Positions 31,398-42,314 of a DNA stretch of 46,099 bases are shown here, piece by piece; positions within the stretch are counted from its first letter, which is position 1, and each line of letters starts with the position of its first letter. The notes under the pieces were generated by a model that did not search any database, was not told the DNA's origin, and was given only the letters and a program-made list of their open reading frames with translations. The position numbers were made by a program, and so were the translations under genes. This DNA is from a virus: the IMG/VR virus record IMGVR_UViG_3300028610_000578, positions 1-46,099 of that record. One strand, given 5' to 3'.

Positions 31398-32129
31398 TCA
31401 GTCATCGAATGCCCTCTCAATCATATCTGCCCGTGCTCTGGTTTGAGCGTCCGGGTCGTGTTGTTTATTAGCTGGATTCTTAGACCAGTTAAGTATTGCC
31501 CTGTAATGTGACGTATATCCGTAGTTCTTGAGGTCTAACCCTTCGTCGAGGGTCTTTATCCAGTGCTGTGTGCCAGCCTCTCCAAACTTCTTGACCAGCT
31601 TCTCATGCTCCTCATCTGTGAGACGTACATGCTTCAATTCCCCATATATATGTTTAGGCTTCTTTGAAGATGTAGAGGCAATAGAAGAAGAAGACAAAGA
31701 CGGAGAAGAAGATGAAGAAGAAGTGTTGCCTTTTGGTTCGCCTTTGGTTGCAAGCACATTTAAACCACCCTTCGCCTCCAAAGCCTTGTTTCTTCTAGCT
31801 TCTCCCGATGCCCTACCACCGCGCTTGCTTTTTTCACGCCATTCTATTTGCTTCTCCCGCTCCTGTAGTAGCCTGTCAGAAACGAGCCTGTCACCCTTCA
31901 ATGTGAAGCACTCTTTGATAATCTTAGAGCTTCCCTGAAACCACTTATCGCCAAGCCGGGAGAGCCGGGAAAGTTTGTCATCGTCATTCAAGAGGGAACA
32001 ATCATCGTCACTCCAGGCATGACAGAGAAGGCGCAAATATGCTCCCTGCTCCTCAAGGGTCATTAGATCAACCTTAGTCGAGCCTAGCCAATCGCCCGGA
32101 TAAAACTGGAATGCTGGTGACTTAGCCAT
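31398..32129 (-). CDS. DUF1376 replication-initiator-like protein, 243 aa
   Basis: FQFYPGDWLGSTKVDLMT, EQGAYLRLLCHAWSDD and the following L-D-D-L-L pattern are the DUF1376 domain (about residues 5-95), found in lambda-O-like and other replication initiators. A Ser-rich linker follows (about 135-155), encoded by GAA-like repeats on the other strand. Then comes a C-terminal helical domain starting KHIYGELKHVRL. It probably binds the phage origin and recruits the loader. The start overlaps the ASCH-like gene by eight bases. Confidence 0.82.
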   Translation of the reverse strand: MAKSPAFQFYPGDWLGSTKVDLMTLEEQGAYLRLLCHAWSDDDCSLLNDDDKLSRLSRLGDKWFQGSSKIIKECFTLKGDRLVSDRLLQEREKQIEWREKSKRGGRASGEARRNKALEAKGGLNVLATKGEPKGNTSSSSSSPSLSSSSIASTSSKKPKHIYGELKHVRLTDEEHEKLVKKFGEAGTQHWIKTLDEGLDLKNYGYTSHYRAILNWSKNPANKQHDPDAQTRARADMIERAFDD

Positions 32130-32733
32130 GAATCACCTTAAACTCCACGACCCATACCCACGGGTTCTTTGTCCATCCATATCCTCTGGCCTTATTGATG
32201 CTATCCCAGAGCACGGCGAACTCACTCCTGACTCCACCTTGGAGGAGCTTCAGCCCTTCGGCCTCACAGTCTGCCCTGCTGATGTCCTGCACCCGCTCCA
32301 CGCGGATGTTGGTTATCTCCAGGTTGATGCGGCTGGCTATACGAGGCATGTGTATAGAGGGCGACCACTTCCAATATTTACTCCATCTATCGGCATCATC
32401 ATCCGTCTTATAGACGTATATCCGCTTGCCTATCTTGATGTGGTCAGGGACGGCTCTCATGAACGTCTCCCGCACCCATAGCCTGTCACCTGACATACCA
32501 TATGGAGAACCCATACATTTACCTGTTGTTGTATTCCAGATGATTGCATCTTCTGAATTACAAGGCGTACCATCTTTATAATAAACGCCGGGGCCACCCA
32601 GTGTAGATGCTTCCCATTCACCGCGAGATTCAGGCAATTTAATAACCCGGCGCGTCTGAGTCTTGCGGCCTTCGAGTATGGCCCTGACCATCGGGCCGCT
32701 GAATAATATTGGTCGCTCTTTAACTGTAATCAT
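32122..32733 (-). CDS. ASCH-type (PUA-like) phage protein, 203 aa
   Basis: ILFSGPMVRAILEGRKTQTRR near the N-terminus and GDRLWVRETF, SIHMPRIASRI and WVWVVEF later are the marks of the phage ASCH-domain group. ASCH domains resemble PUA folds and are thought to bind RNA or modified nucleotides. Placement beside RtcB gives the operon two RNA-related proteins. AGGGGG with good spacing lies before the ATG. Confidence 0.85.
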   Translation of the reverse strand: MITVKERPILFSGPMVRAILEGRKTQTRRVIKLPESRGEWEASTLGGPGVYYKDGTPCNSEDAIIWNTTTGKCMGSPYGMSGDRLWVRETFMRAVPDHIKIGKRIYVYKTDDDADRWSKYWKWSPSIHMPRIASRINLEITNIRVERVQDISRADCEAEGLKLLQGGVRSEFAVLWDSINKARGYGWTKNPWVWVVEFKVIHG

Positions 32734-32764: not shown

Positions 32765-33934
32765 TTATCCCTTTATTGCTGATATTTGATAGGGGTTGAG
32801 TTCCACAAGTATTTCTACGAGGTCTTCTTGTGCCTTCATAACCTCTCGGATGTCCTTGTATGCTTGCGGGGCTTCGTCTACGTTGCGCTCATCAAAGCGG
32901 CATAATAAGCCCCCCATAGCCTTTGTAGCGTCTTCCACGCTAATCCCTGCCTCGAACTTGCGTTTGCCCCGCCTCGTTAATCCTGTGGCCTTTGTGCGGG
33001 ACATTACACGCCCTGCCCCATGAGAGCAAGAGTTGAAACTGGTCTTATTCCCCTTGCCCTTCACGATGTATGACGGGGTTCCCTGAGAGCCGGGTATTAT
33101 CCCTGTGGTGTCTTGTGTTGCAAGGGTGGCCCCCTTACGATGGACAACCACGGATTCGCCCCCATGCATTTCAAGGCTTGCATAGTTGTGGTGTATGTTG
33201 ATTTCCTCAAACTCTGCCTCGCCCACGATCTCAGTTATTGCTATCTTGATTTGTCTGGCTATCTCGGCCCTGTTTGCATAGGCAAAATCAAGGGCGAAGT
33301 TCATGGAAATGTCATACTCGATGGCCTCAGAAGTTCCCATATTGAAATATGACAAGTCTTTAAGGGGCGTTTCCCCCGCTTCTTTTGCTAAGGCGTTGTA
33401 GTGGTCACATATCTGCTTGCCGATATTCCTTGAACCTGAATGAATCATGTACCATATGTGTCCGTCAGAGCCTTCCTGAAACTCAATGAAATGGTTGCCC
33501 CCGCCAAGCGTGCCAAGTTGTTTCCGGGCGTTGTCTATTTCCCTCTTGATAATCGGCATGTCCATAGGGGCGGTTTCAAACCCTTCCCATTCCTTGAAGC
33601 CCTCATGCTTGTTAAACCCAACCGGGACAGACTTGCGGATAAGGGCATATATCTGTTTCTGCTCCTCTAACCCAAGCCCAGTTGAAAGTATATTGGTCTT
33701 GACCGCAAGCATTCCGCATCCGATGTCCACGCCTACAGCGTTCGGGCAAATGGCATCCTTCATGGCAAGGACACCACCTATCGGCATCCCCATGCCCATG
33801 TGGACATCCGGCATTAACGCTAAGTGGTCATACACTGGCATAAATTCAACTATATCTAATGCCTGTGTCATGGCTGAATTTTCGATGTTTACAGCCCATG
33901 AATAAATAGGAACCTTCGTGTTAAAAACTTTCAT
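32765..33934 (-). CDS. rtcB: RtcB-family RNA ligase, 389 aa
   Basis: The full-length RtcB motif set is present: PDVHMGMGMPIGGV (42-55), VGVDIGCGM with Cys73, GGGNHF with His148, HSGSRN with His165, HHN near 248-250 and SHGAGR with the guanylylated His305. RtcB joins 3'-phosphate or 2',3'-cyclic phosphate ends to 5'-OH ends using GTP and Mn2+, so it could repair tRNAs cut by host defence nucleases or process phage RNAs. The ATG shares a base with the last codon of the gene upstream when that gene's frameshift is restored. GAGGTG lies upstream. Confidence 0.95.
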   Translation of the reverse strand: MKVFNTKVPIYSWAVNIENSAMTQALDIVEFMPVYDHLALMPDVHMGMGMPIGGVLAMKDAICPNAVGVDIGCGMLAVKTNILSTGLGLEEQKQIYALIRKSVPVGFNKHEGFKEWEGFETAPMDMPIIKREIDNARKQLGTLGGGNHFIEFQEGSDGHIWYMIHSGSRNIGKQICDHYNALAKEAGETPLKDLSYFNMGTSEAIEYDISMNFALDFAYANRAEIARQIKIAITEIVGEAEFEEINIHHNYASLEMHGGESVVVHRKGATLATQDTTGIIPGSQGTPSYIVKGKGNKTSFNSCSHGAGRVMSRTKATGLTRRGKRKFEAGISVEDATKAMGGLLCRFDERNVDEAPQAYKDIREVMKAQEDLVEILVELNPYQISAIKG

Positions 33935-34306
33935 TATGTCACCTCGTCAAAGTCTACAGACTCAGAGTAATAGCCGTTAGAAGTACCGAACCACCGGATA
34001 GTAACATAGCCTTTTATGGTGGCAAAGTTATAGAATGTCCAGGTGAAGGAGTCGTCGCTGTCTGGTTTTTTTTATCCCCTCTGGAGTTTCTTCGCTAGAA
34101 TCCTCAGAGGCTTTTACAATTGGAACCCCTACGAGGTCTTCCAAATTGCCGACAATATCCTCAACAGTGACAGACTCGCAACAATCCTGATAATGATGCA
34201 TTTTGAATGAGCGTCCGTCATCTGTTGTAAAGATTATTTCATCATCGCCAACACTACCTGTTACTGAAGACAGGATCTTCCCTATTAAATCTTCAACCTT
34301 TGCCAT
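33934..34306 (-). pseudogene. DUF7448-like protein interrupted by a frameshift at an A8 run
   Basis: Frame 1 from ATG 34306 encodes EIIFTTDDGRSFKMHHYQDCCESV and then shifts at eight A (34073-34066 on the - strand). The unshifted reading ends after 92 codons with an unrelated Arg/Leu tail. After a +1 shift the downstream frame reads [20 protein letters not shown] and STNGYYSE-like sequence and ends with TAATG on the rtcB start. The two parts together match one known family (DUF7448-like, from memory). Either the run has one extra A by error or mutation, or the shift is programmed. Confidence 0.72.
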
Positions 34307-34341
34307 AATACCCTCCTTGGTTACAGGTTATTTCCGAAAAC

Positions 34342-34436
34342 AAAAAAAGCCACCCAAGGCGCGGCTAAGCATGACAGTTCGGAAACTATCCCTTGGGCGG
34401 CTATCTCTATGTTCGTGAGTTCCATCATGCTTAGCC
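34342..34436 (-). ncRNA. Interleaved-stem (pseudoknot-type) RNA, copy 1, with U7 end
   Basis: On the - strand: stem 1 is GGCUAAGCAUGA (34436-34425) with UCAUGCUUAGCC (34374-34363), 12/12. Stem 2 is GCCGCCCAAGG (34401-34391) with CCUUGGGUGGC (34359-34349), 11 pairs with one G.U that would be C.A on the other strand. The stems interleave. U7 follows stem 2, so it can act as a terminator. The loop between the 5' strands contains ACGAACAUA, matched by ACGUACAUA in copy 2 at 41750-41758. A promoter starts it at the first stem base. Confidence 0.75.
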
Positions 34437-34443
34437 TGTCTCT

Positions 34444-34472
34444 AGTATTGCACAGGAGCGTGTCATTGTCAA
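34444..34472 (-). promoter_or_regulatory. Sigma-70-like promoter for RNA copy 1
   Basis: On the - strand TTGACA (34472-34467), a 17-base spacer and AATACT (34449-34444; four of six consensus). The expected start is 34437-34436, the first base of stem 1. It lies in the gap after the gene at 34496-34681. Confidence 0.7.
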
Positions 34473-34683: not shown

Positions 34684-34863
34684 TCAACCTCCCTTGATTT
34701 CCGGGTTATTGGGGCATCCCTCGCAAACCCTGTCATGGCAATCGGCACAGTCTACGTGGTAATCCGGGTCATGGTCGGGCTCCGGGGTATCGTCCTTCAT
34801 CGACCACCAGGCACAGTACAGGACCAGTGTTCCTGCGAATAGGTAGAATATGAATGTCGCCAT
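34684..34863 (-). CDS. Membrane-anchored Cys-rich protein with CADCH motif, 59 aa
   Basis: The start at 34863 shares a base with the ACP stop. An N-terminal TM helix (about 3-20) is followed by an acidic linker and a Cys-rich end CADCHDRVCEGC. The CXXCH string could bind haem if the end is periplasmic, but the further CXXC pattern is also typical of small zinc-binding phage peptides, which I think is more likely. Confidence 0.7.
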   Translation of the reverse strand: MATFIFYLFAGTLVLYCAWWSMKDDTPEPDHDPDYHVDCADCHDRVCEGCPNNPEIKGG

Positions 34864-35105
34864 TATGCAACCTTCACTTTGAGATATGAGATAATATCCC
34901 CGACAGTCTTCCATCCCGTGGCGTCATCGTCTGCTATCTCTACCCCGAACTCTTCCTCGAATGTCATGGTGAGTTCAACGAGGTCGAGGCTGTCCATGCC
35001 AAGGTCATCTGTAAGGTCAAGCTCATCTGCAAGCGTGTTATGACCATAACTTTCCATGAGGTTCACGCCAAGCTGCTTTACTATGATATTTCTTGCTTCG
35101 TCCAT
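34863..35105 (-). CDS. Acyl carrier protein, 80 aa
   Basis: The full ACP fold is readable: helix 1 (residues 2-16), LTDDLGMDSLDLVELTMTFEEEF-like helix 2 beginning at the DSL motif with the phosphopantetheine Ser39, FGVEIADDDA and the closing TVGDIISYLK. The charge is strongly acidic, as expected. The start shares bases with the previous stop (TGATG). ACP would need host AcpS to become holo. A phage copy could take over fatty-acid, lipid A or lipoate supply, or act as a scaffold for another factor. Confidence 0.92.
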   Translation of the reverse strand: MDEARNIIVKQLGVNLMESYGHNTLADELDLTDDLGMDSLDLVELTMTFEEEFGVEIADDDATGWKTVGDIISYLKVKVA

Positions 35106-35593
35106 CATCTCCCTCTCAGTTCTGCCAGCAATGCCCCTAGCTGGATGCATTCCATGGCGGCATCATATTTGCCTGCCTTGATATTACTGCGGAGCTTGAG
35201 CGCGTCAAAGCGTTCTTGCCCCATCCATTTCTCTATCAGGAAGTCGCGGAAGTTCTCCGGGTTCCCGTGGGCCTGGAACTTGTGGCATCCGCTACAGAGC
35301 AATATCCCGTTCTCCATAGAGTGTCGGACCTGCTTACTGGCCCGTGTGATAATGTGGTGGGCTTGGACTACTACGAGCTTGCCGCTATTGAGCACATCCC
35401 TATTCACCTTCCCGCAATATTGGCATGTCCATTTATCGCGCTTGCGTATACAGTCCCGCCATAGGTCATCGGCTGCTAGCTCCTGCGCTCTCCGGGCGGA
35501 CTTGGATATGCTTCGGAGGCTGGTGGTGCTCTTGAGGCGCTTCTTGCCCCGCTTCATGTGCTTGCGGCGCTTTGGCATGGGGGAGCGTTTCAC
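35105..35593 (-). CDS. HNH / NinG-like protein, 162 aa
   Basis: A basic N-terminus (MPKRRKHMKRGKKRLK) is followed by CQYCG (57-61), AHHIITR (78-84), Asn95 and LLCSGCHKF (99-106), an HNH nuclease core with two zinc pairs. The arrangement recalls lambda NinG-type proteins and HNH nucleases used in recombination. A GTG start at 35593 overlaps the previous stop (GTGA), with GAGG ten bases upstream. Confidence 0.8.
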   Translation of the reverse strand: MKRSPMPKRRKHMKRGKKRLKSTTSLRSISKSARRAQELAADDLWRDCIRKRDKWTCQYCGKVNRDVLNSGKLVVVQAHHIITRASKQVRHSMENGILLCSGCHKFQAHGNPENFRDFLIEKWMGQERFDALKLRSNIKAGKYDAAMECIQLGALLAELRGR

Positions 35594-40848: not shown

Positions 40849-41723
40849 AGACAACCAACAAGCACAACATAGCCGATGTATTCTTCCGCGCTCTGACGCA
40901 TGACGACTACACGCGGGGCGATGCCAAGTATTCCAACACGAACCTGATAGCTCCCGCCAAGTCCATCATTCTCAAGAGGGCGCATGCAAAGGAGCTTACA
41001 TGTGATGTGACGGAACTGTTCGCCCGGTGGCGCGGAACGTGCATACATGACAACCTCGAACGCTTCGCCAAGCCAAACTCGATAGCAGAGGAGCGCCTGG
41101 AGGCGGAAGTGGACGGGGTGAAACTCAGCACAAAGCCGGACCACTATGACGGCGACACATGCATCCTTGACGATTACAAGACAACAAGCGTGTGGTCCTT
41201 CATGCTCGGCCTCAAGCAAGAGTGGGTGCAACAGCTTAACATCGGCGCGTGGTTCCTGAGACAGTATGGCTTTGAGGTCAAGGGTTTGAAGATACAGGCC
41301 GCGCTGTGGGATTGGAACCGCAACGAAATGATGCGGAATGAGGACTACCCGAAAACGCCCCTGCACTCCTTGGAGGTTCCGCTGTGGTCAGAGGACAAGC
41401 AACTGGAGTTTATCAGGGAGCGGCTGGCGATCTTGGAAGAATGCGAAGCTGAGTTCATAGCGTCCGGCATTATCTCCCGCCAGTGTACTCCAGAGGAGCG
41501 TTGGGAAACGGCTACCAAGTTCGCGGTTATGAAGGGAGCGAACAAGCGTGCCACAAAGCTATGCGATAGTACGGGACAGGCTGCCGCCTACATAAAAGGG
41601 CATAAGGACGGGGGCAAGATGAGCGTGGTTGAGCGTCCGGGGGAGGCGAAGCGTTGCTCGTTAGGGTATTGCGATGCCAGCCCGTGGTGCCAGCAATGGA
41701 AATCGGAAAGTGTGTTACAATAA
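40845..41723 (+). CDS. PD-(D/E)XK nuclease (RecB/Cas4-like), 292 aa
   Basis: The start at 40845 is chosen because its ATG overlaps the previous stop; the frame continues upstream without a binding site. GTCIHDNLE with His68, KPDH with Asp99 and DDYKTT with Asp110-Lys112 are the catalytic residues. QQLNIGAW follows as motif IV. The C-terminal Cys-rich segment (RCSLGYC, then SPWC) may hold an iron-sulfur or zinc site. It should degrade DNA ends to feed ERF annealing. The final codons overlap the promoter of RNA copy 2. Confidence 0.88.
   Translation: MKTTNKHNIADVFFRALTHDDYTRGDAKYSNTNLIAPAKSIILKRAHAKELTCDVTELFARWRGTCIHDNLERFAKPNSIAEERLEAEVDGVKLSTKPDHYDGDTCILDDYKTTSVWSFMLGLKQEWVQQLNIGAWFLRQYGFEVKGLKIQAALWDWNRNEMMRNEDYPKTPLHSLEVPLWSEDKQLEFIRERLAILEECEAEFIASGIISRQCTPEERWETATKFAVMKGANKRATKLCDSTGQAAAYIKGHKDGGKMSVVERPGEAKRCSLGYCDASPWCQQWKSESVLQ
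41713..41721 (+). promoter_or_regulatory. Extended -10 promoter for RNA copy 2
   Basis: TGT-TACAAT is an extended -10 element overlapping the stop of the nuclease gene. No good -35. The expected start is 41728, the first base of RNA stem 1. Confidence 0.6.
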
Positions 41724-41727
41724 AAGC

Positions 41728-41823
41728 GTGACAGTGATGCTAGAATCTAACGTACATATGAACGGCCCCGTAGGGAGACTTGCAAGCCCACCCGCTAGCA
41801 TTTCTGTCACAACCCTGCGGGGC
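41728..41823 (+). ncRNA. Interleaved-stem (pseudoknot-type) RNA, copy 2, upstream of an HNH gene
   Basis: Stem 1 is 41728-41743 with 41795-41810 (16 positions, one U.U mismatch, one G.U). Stem 2 is GCCCCGUAGGG (41765-41775) with CCCUGCGGGGC (41813-41823), 11 pairs with one U.G wobble that pairs only on the + strand. The stems interleave in the same order as copy 1. The loop has ACGUACAUA at 41750-41758. Stem 2 ends 23 bases before the HNH ATG; no U-tract follows, so RBS control or attenuation fits better than termination. Confidence 0.72.
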
Positions 41824-41846
41824 TCTTCATGTGGATGGGGGTTGAT

Positions 41847-42314
41847 ATGAGATTTATTAGAGAGCATTGGACGTGCACAGTGGAAGGTTGCGAGAGGGAA
41901 CATCAAGCAAAAGGATTGTGCATGACGCATTACAGCCGAATGCGGAGGAATGGCACTCTTGTGAGAAAAGATGACATAGTGCGCGGGTTCCATGAAAAAT
42001 ATACCATAGACCCTGACACTGGTTGCTGGATGTGGGATGGCTACTTAAATGATAAAGGATACGGAAGGACCTCTGTAGAATATGAATCAATTCTAGCTCA
42101 TCGCTTATCATGGAAATTACACTACGGTCCAATCCCAAGGGGCATGAATGTTTGCCATCACTGCGACACCCCCGCATGTGTCAATCCAGAACATTTGTTT
42201 GTAGGAACACAAGCGGACAACGTAAGGGATGCAGTAAAAAAGGGACGCATGAATCATAAGGCTATGTCGGAAAAGGCGCGCCTCATGAGAACACTACAGG
42301 ATAAGGAGGGATAA
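41847..42314 (+). CDS. Free-standing HNH endonuclease with N-terminal zinc finger, 155 aa
   Basis: The ATG at 41847 has GGGGG five bases upstream; two in-frame ATGs lie 12 and 18 bases earlier. Zinc finger: Cys10, Cys15, Cys25, His28 (GLCMTHY). HNH core: [17 protein letters not shown] with Cys103, His104, His105, Asn113 and His116, then GTQADNVRD. This is the homing-type architecture seen in many phage HNH genes. The upstream structured RNA may control it. Confidence 0.88.

Follow-up and report, generated by a model that had tools for sequence, protein, structure and literature searches.

The stretch of viral DNA that was analyzed, at its full length of 46,099 nucleotides (IMG/VR virus record IMGVR_UViG_3300028610_000578, hereafter the window), carries two short elements in which two complementary stems interleave as in a pseudoknot. 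Copy 1 lies on the minus strand and is followed on that strand by the gene for a 92-aa DUF7448/phrog_2650 protein (34028..34306), an rtcB RNA ligase gene (32765..33934) and a phrog_874 gene with no assigned function (32122..32733), after which comes a DUF1376 replisome-organizer-like gene (31398-32129). Copy 2 lies on the plus strand and is flanked by a phrog_2139 exonuclease gene and an HNH endonuclease gene (41829..42314, +), the latter starting at 41829 or, with a better ribosome-binding site, at 41847. The original prediction had placed copy 1 upstream of an rtcB gene pair, but the DUF7448 gene comes first and rtcB only second, and among 62 loci with rtcB neighborhoods the element was found in L217, L215/L250 and L255 only, in no case adjoining rtcB; the element is not tied to rtcB. 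An RtcB-linked self-cleaving ribozyme was considered and set aside, since no ribozyme in Rfam was matched and the element is not directly linked to rtcB. At another locus (L229:3970-4060, +), a long imperfect hairpin (TTCTTCCAGGAGCTC/GGGCTCCTGGGAGAA) ends ~30 nt upstream of the rtcB start codon. The minus strand of the window also encodes an acyl-carrier-like protein (34863-35150) with a phosphopantetheine attachment site (Pfam PP-binding, E 6e-12).

Copy 1 stands directly behind a sigma-70-like promoter (34444..34472, -; TTGACA-17-AATACT with a TG before the -10 element, 10/12 consensus matches), the -10 element of which ends 7 nt before the first base of stem 1, in agreement with the promoter originally proposed, so placed that this base is the predicted transcription start. 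In the direction of transcription, the element consists of the 5' strand of stem 1 (GGCTAAGCATGATGG, 34422..34436), loop 1 (34403..34421, with a ACGAACATA core common to copy 2), the 5' strand of stem 2 (AGCCGCCCAAGG, 34391..34402), the 3' strand of stem 1 (CTGTCATGCTTAGCC, 34363..34377), which lies within the loop of stem 2, and the 3' strand of stem 2 (CCTTGGGTGGCT, 34348..34359), which would complete a predicted terminator stem and is followed by a T7 run (34342..34348) whose first T is also the last stem base. The interleaved stems and the U7 described earlier are thus present on the minus strand, but the pair counts of 12 and 11 change to 15 for stem 1 (including 2 G.U; 12 without the G.U end) and 12 for stem 2 (including 1 G.U). 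The summed stacking energy of both stems amounts to -54.5 kcal/mol, a value reached by 0 of 1000 dinucleotide shuffles, the best of which gave -38.3 kcal/mol. In an independent scan anchored on T-runs and blind to promoters, copy 1 ranked first of 7968 T-run sites in ~4 Mb of phage and bacterial DNA for the combination of a pseudoknot with a U-run. Stem 2 and the T7 run end 35 nt upstream of the DUF7448 gene, so that copy 1, judged by its sequence, shows the stem and U-run upstream of the first gene that characterize attenuators of the pyrBI type. A local 6-bp hairpin (AGCCGC/GTGGCT, 34348-34366, -) also precedes the U-run and competes with both pseudoknot stems, as AGCCGC is present twice, at the end of the stem 1 3' strand and at the start of the stem 2 5' strand.

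In copy 2, stem 1 is split into 7 + 8 pairs (41728-41810), its 5' strand (41728..41743, +) comprising GTGACAG (41728-41734) and GATGCTAG (41736-41743), and its 3' strand (41795..41810, +) comprising CTAGCATT (41795-41802) and CTGTCAC (41804-41810). Stem 2 (41764-41824) is formed by GGCCCCGTAGGG (41764..41775, +) and CCCTGCGGGGCT (41813..41824, +), and loop 1 (41744..41763, +) contains a ACGTACATA core. The pseudoknot energy of -42.8 kcal/mol lies beyond the best of 1000 dinucleotide shuffles (-37.7 kcal/mol). No U-run follows, and the promoter is reduced to a lone -10-like TACAAT (41716..41721, +), 7 nt before the first stem base, with no consensus-type -35 element scored. The second copy announced in the original prediction at 41728 is therefore real in its stem order and shared core, whereas the terminator and a full promoter are missing and the element ends at 41824. 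A 48-nt alignment of the copies begins at the ATG in stem 1, crosses loop 1 and takes in the 5' strand of stem 2; shuffles match it in 29/3000 cases for the whole element and in 9/3000 for the core. The order of the stems is identical, but the stems have no sequence in common; since the 48-nt core can be aligned while the paired sequences differ, copies 1 and 2 are probably diverged duplicates, combining alignable sequence with the same topology as members of one RNA family do. The motif ACGNACATANR occurs at only two sites in the window, namely in copies 1 and 2, which is weak when taken alone, as 10 of 100 shuffles also give two sites.

Searches of Rfam 15 with both copies, at the gathering score and at E up to 10, gave no credible match, the sole one being a chance-level miRNA (E 0.79) on the strand opposite to copy 2, and eight relatives of the element (described below) had no match at the Rfam gathering score. 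The view that the element does not belong to a known RNA family was hence borne out, and copies 1 and 2 are a real structured RNA that is absent from Rfam. When the two copies were compared with 50,697 phage genomes by BLASTN, only chance matches were returned, and DUF7448 used as bait found nothing in viral contigs. The loop pattern ACGNACATA..GCC..AGGGA was found in 89 stretches of viral sequence and in at least 118 of genome collections, all of which look like chance or coding repeats in the interleaved-stem test, and copies 1 and 2 therefore have no sequence homologs within reach. The expectation that a family could be found by sequence from the two copies did not hold; it is the architecture that recurs instead.

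This recurrence was detected with a purpose-written finder that looks for interleaved stems whose third loop is short, applied to about 3.5-4 Mb of loci fetched via exonuclease, rtcB and other baits. The strongest non-coding matches lie just behind promoters, in L331 (17231+), L313 (12309+), L255 (1628+), L300 (7964+), L217 (618- and 2270+, L217a and L217b), L215 (3915-, also in L250), L306 (1718-), and L002 (810+). Each of these pseudoknots lies beyond 500 shuffles, with the exception of L306 (2/500). In promoter-anchored controls, weaker pseudoknots (-32 to -36 kcal/mol) were equally common away from and behind promoters, and only strong ones were counted because weak ones occur at chance frequency. 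In the T-run scan of 7968 sites, L331, L313, L376, L370, and L374 are among the six sites ranked after copy 1. The order promoter, stem 1 5' strand, stem 2 5' strand, stem 1 3' strand, stem 2 3' strand, often a U-run, and then a gene is kept in L331, L313, L215, and L255, and without the U-run in L217a; a U-run is likewise absent from copy 2, L002, L300, and L217b. In most cases 5-42 nt separate the end of the element from the start of the gene, which encodes an HTH or replication-type protein and is followed in some loci by a DnaB-like or DnaC-like ATPase gene. None of six annotated phages that have related genes for replication or an exonuclease carries the element behind a strong promoter, and hence it is not universal. 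L331 has another candidate (13397-), which was not counted because it may be a chance match inside coding DNA.

The L002 element (810-900, +; 14 + 11 bp, with abutting 3' strands) lies directly past the 3' end of a tyrosine recombinase gene (899-1735, -); there is no gene directly downstream on its own strand, and it could be an sRNA, an antisense leader of the integrase or part of an attachment site. In L331 (17190-17320, +), a 5' leader strand TGGCACC can pair with GGTGTCG in the 5' strand of stem 2 as an alternative to the terminator, and the GGTGTCG block is kept in L313.

Compensatory changes, which the original prediction had called for, are present among the relatives. L331 and L313, in which the proteins behind the leader are 57% identical, differ by paired changes in stem 1, stem 2, and an outer stem, and their 26-nt loop 1 core is identical; these comparisons indicate that the structure of the element is under selection. 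The listed stems of ten elements contain 24 G.U pairs and 0 A.C pairs among their non-Watson-Crick pairs, a pattern that matches RNA of this strand and agrees with the RNA polarity predicted for the minus strand, but that is supportive rather than decisive, as the finder accepts and favors G.U and thus brings in some bias. Compared with L331, L313, L255, L215, L217, L002, and L300, the window copies have the same architecture and no significant sequence similarity. Copy 1 and these relatives appear to be joined by architecture and not by sequence, and a common descent with copy 1 would be without sequence support. An alignment of the L331 HTH protein used as bait returned only L331 itself, L313 and one weak match.

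The best covariation in the analysis belongs to a similarly built but different RNA, distinct from the copy 1 type, on eleven contigs (L277, L278, L280, L281, L287, L306, L368, L370, L371, L374, and L376), in which the loop of a 5' hairpin pairs with a strand in the loop of a terminator hairpin followed by T5-T9. These kissing pairs covary, since the native partners beat all 20000 shuffled assignments (0/20000). The domain is the 5' part of a candidate conserved non-coding RNA of ~370 nt in IMG/VR phage contigs (e.g., L370:1120-1530, +; also L287/L288, L370/L375, and L371/L377), which adjoins RusA/exonuclease genes where this was checked (L280, L281, and L306). Behind the kissing-hairpin/terminator domain lies a second domain that comprises covarying stems (CGAGG/CCTCG, CACGG/CCGTG, and TCCGG/CCGGA) and a hairpin with GNRA loops (GUCAG-GCAA-CUGAC and GUUAG-GAAA-CUAAC). 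Two of these RNAs gave no credible Rfam match at E<=10, and BLASTN gave no match in known phages. In L371 (4186-4500, +), the second domain has an insertion with a T-arm-like hairpin (GGCAG-TTCAAAT-CTGCC), in which ARAGORN finds no tRNA or tmRNA.

A feature overlooked in the original prediction is that both window copies are crossed by a predicted leader ORF. In copy 1, an ORF of 35 aa (MMELTNIEIAAQGIVSELSCLAAPWVAFFVFGNNL, 34321..34428, -) starts with an AUG within stem 1, spans both stems and the T-run and stops just upstream of the DUF7448 ribosome-binding site, and in copy 2 the stop codon TGA of an ORF of 37 aa (41737..41850, +) overlaps an ATG of the HNH gene at 41847 (ATGA). No clear Shine-Dalgarno site precedes either ORF. 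ATG-started ORFs that cross the pseudoknot, mostly of 33-38 codons, are found in 7 of 11 elements, compared with 1.1 expected from shuffles, and are absent from the remaining 4/11. The sequences of the leader peptides are not conserved. Between L331 and L313 the frame is kept over 33 codons with no indels, while the substitutions, counted by eye, are distributed as 11, 9, and 12 over codon positions 1, 2, and 3; as the frame is kept and yet no codon position is favored, translation as such seems more important than the peptide.

The simplest model that uses all of these parts is that of a translation-coupled attenuator, in which copy 1 would be a pseudoknotted intrinsic terminator inside a leader ORF, controlling the early operon in a pyrBI-like manner, and to this reading we give a little less than an even chance. 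The strong promoter would start the early-operon RNA with the base that opens stem 1. Stem 1 would close first and hold the 5' strand of stem 2 in its loop, so bringing the strands of stem 2 together, and upon its emergence the 3' strand of stem 2 would pair beside stem 1, at a distance of 3 nt, to form a pseudoknotted intrinsic terminator with the U7. A ribosome following closely behind RNA polymerase on the leader ORF would unwind the stems and transcription would continue, whereas an RNA of ~95 nt would be released if no ribosome is close. Copy 2 would be a paralogous leader before the HNH gene, with coupling via the overlapping stop and start codons (ATGA), and for this copy translational coupling to the HNH gene is likelier than termination, as there is no U-run. 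The model builds on the promoter-like sequence, the stems, the U-run, the ORFs, their recurrent arrangement and the covariation in relatives, all of which are observed. From these we infer where transcription starts, that it terminates, that the leader ORF is translated and coupled, and in which direction control is exerted. Several features speak against the model, namely the missing Shine-Dalgarno sites of both window ORFs, the position of the copy 1 AUG within stem 1, the relatives that have no U-run or no crossing ORF, the L002 element with no gene right behind it, and the lack of conservation among the leader peptides. Because similar knots occur in several unrelated phages, copy 1 is probably a switch, with translation deciding whether the genes behind it are copied. 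The switch between pseudoknot and terminator that was originally offered beside a stand-alone RNA is possible in view of the competing 6-bp hairpin, but in most relatives with a U-run stem 2 is itself the terminator stem.

The closest known parallel is the E. coli pyrBI operon, the terminator of which is located within a 135-bp leader gene and controlled by the ribosome; without a pause, a terminator located within 100 bp of the start of a gene is as a rule left undisturbed (PMC4824070). In both systems the terminator lies in a short leader ORF just before the first gene (in the window, ORFs of 35 and 37 codons run through the pseudoknot), translation would relieve termination, and the peptide sequence may not matter. 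In contrast, pyrBI relies on a simple hairpin together with a pause that is sensitive to UTP, while the terminator stem of copy 1 is part of a long-range pseudoknot with no known pause site or effector. Pseudoknot riboswitches in Rfam (preQ1, SAM-II, and relatives) share with copies 1 and 2 an H-type pseudoknot in a leader but differ from them, as the copies match none of these at E up to 10 and have stems of 12-15 bp, with a second loop that is long and 3' strands that almost abut.

The main rival to the attenuator is a stand-alone phage sRNA of ~95 nt that acts in trans or protects itself, with stem 2 and U7 merely as its terminator and with incidental neighbors. Promoter, element, and U-run do fit a single 95-nt unit, and the L002 element would suit such an RNA, since no gene follows it directly on the same strand. 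However, copy 2 and several relatives have no terminator, most elements end within 5-42 nt of a gene start, and the stem sequences are not conserved, so that little would be left for base-pairing with a target; the over-represented leader ORFs in turn favor a cis-acting leader over a free sRNA, which we therefore regard as rather unlikely, if still a serious contender.

We consider it improbable that the copies act like the put sites of phage HK022, in which case the nascent RNA would bind RNA polymerase and render it insensitive to terminators farther along the early operon. The likeness is that a single phage has a pair of related structured RNAs, each located where an early transcript is predicted to begin, as with putL and putR near the early promoters of HK022 (PMC9378689), and that copies 1 and 2 share a loop core while differing in their stems. 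But put RNA consists of two stem-loops that bind the zinc-binding domain of the RNA polymerase beta' subunit and has neither a pseudoknot nor a terminal U-run, whereas copies 1 and 2 are predicted to form an H-type pseudoknot and do not fit the put pattern, copy 1 ends in a strong terminator-like U-run, and nothing was found in Rfam.

About equally improbable is an operator role, in which a protein bound to the pseudoknot would autoregulate translation of the gene that follows, as in the leader of T4 gene 32. The pseudoknot of the T4/RB69 gene 32 leader nucleates the binding of protein that blocks translation and is not a terminator. It resembles copy 1 as a pseudoknot in a phage leader, gene 32 being a gene of DNA metabolism, and the elements described here immediately precede the start codons of early or replication genes and have loop cores conserved in copies 1 and 2 and, separately, in L331 and L313, as a protein site would be. 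The U-run of copy 1 and the leader ORFs would be left unexplained, however, and the structure ends ~20 nt before the DUF7448 ribosome-binding site and does not occlude it. Very improbable is a DNA-level element of interleaved inverted repeats that is bound by a recombinase or repressor and has no function as RNA, for although interleaved repeats could be operators and the L002 element adjoins a tyrosine recombinase gene, the mismatches are all G.U with no A.C, the orientation is fixed relative to promoter and U-run, and the kissing stems covary in the similarly built large RNA.

Whether the translation-coupled attenuator extends beyond the window is a more doubtful matter, although it is conceivable that the elements make up a new class of diverse sequence, in which a pseudoknotted terminator within an ORF of ~35 codons reports translation to the polymerase and thereby gates early or replication operons of unrelated phages. 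The case for such a class rests on architecture. If true, such elements would escape searches of the Rfam type, as their architecture is kept while their sequence is free, and topology alone would find them. Phages would then possess a terminator hairpin that is completed only via a pseudoknot and can be overridden by a translating ribosome, and early phage expression would be tied to the translation state of the host through RNA alone.
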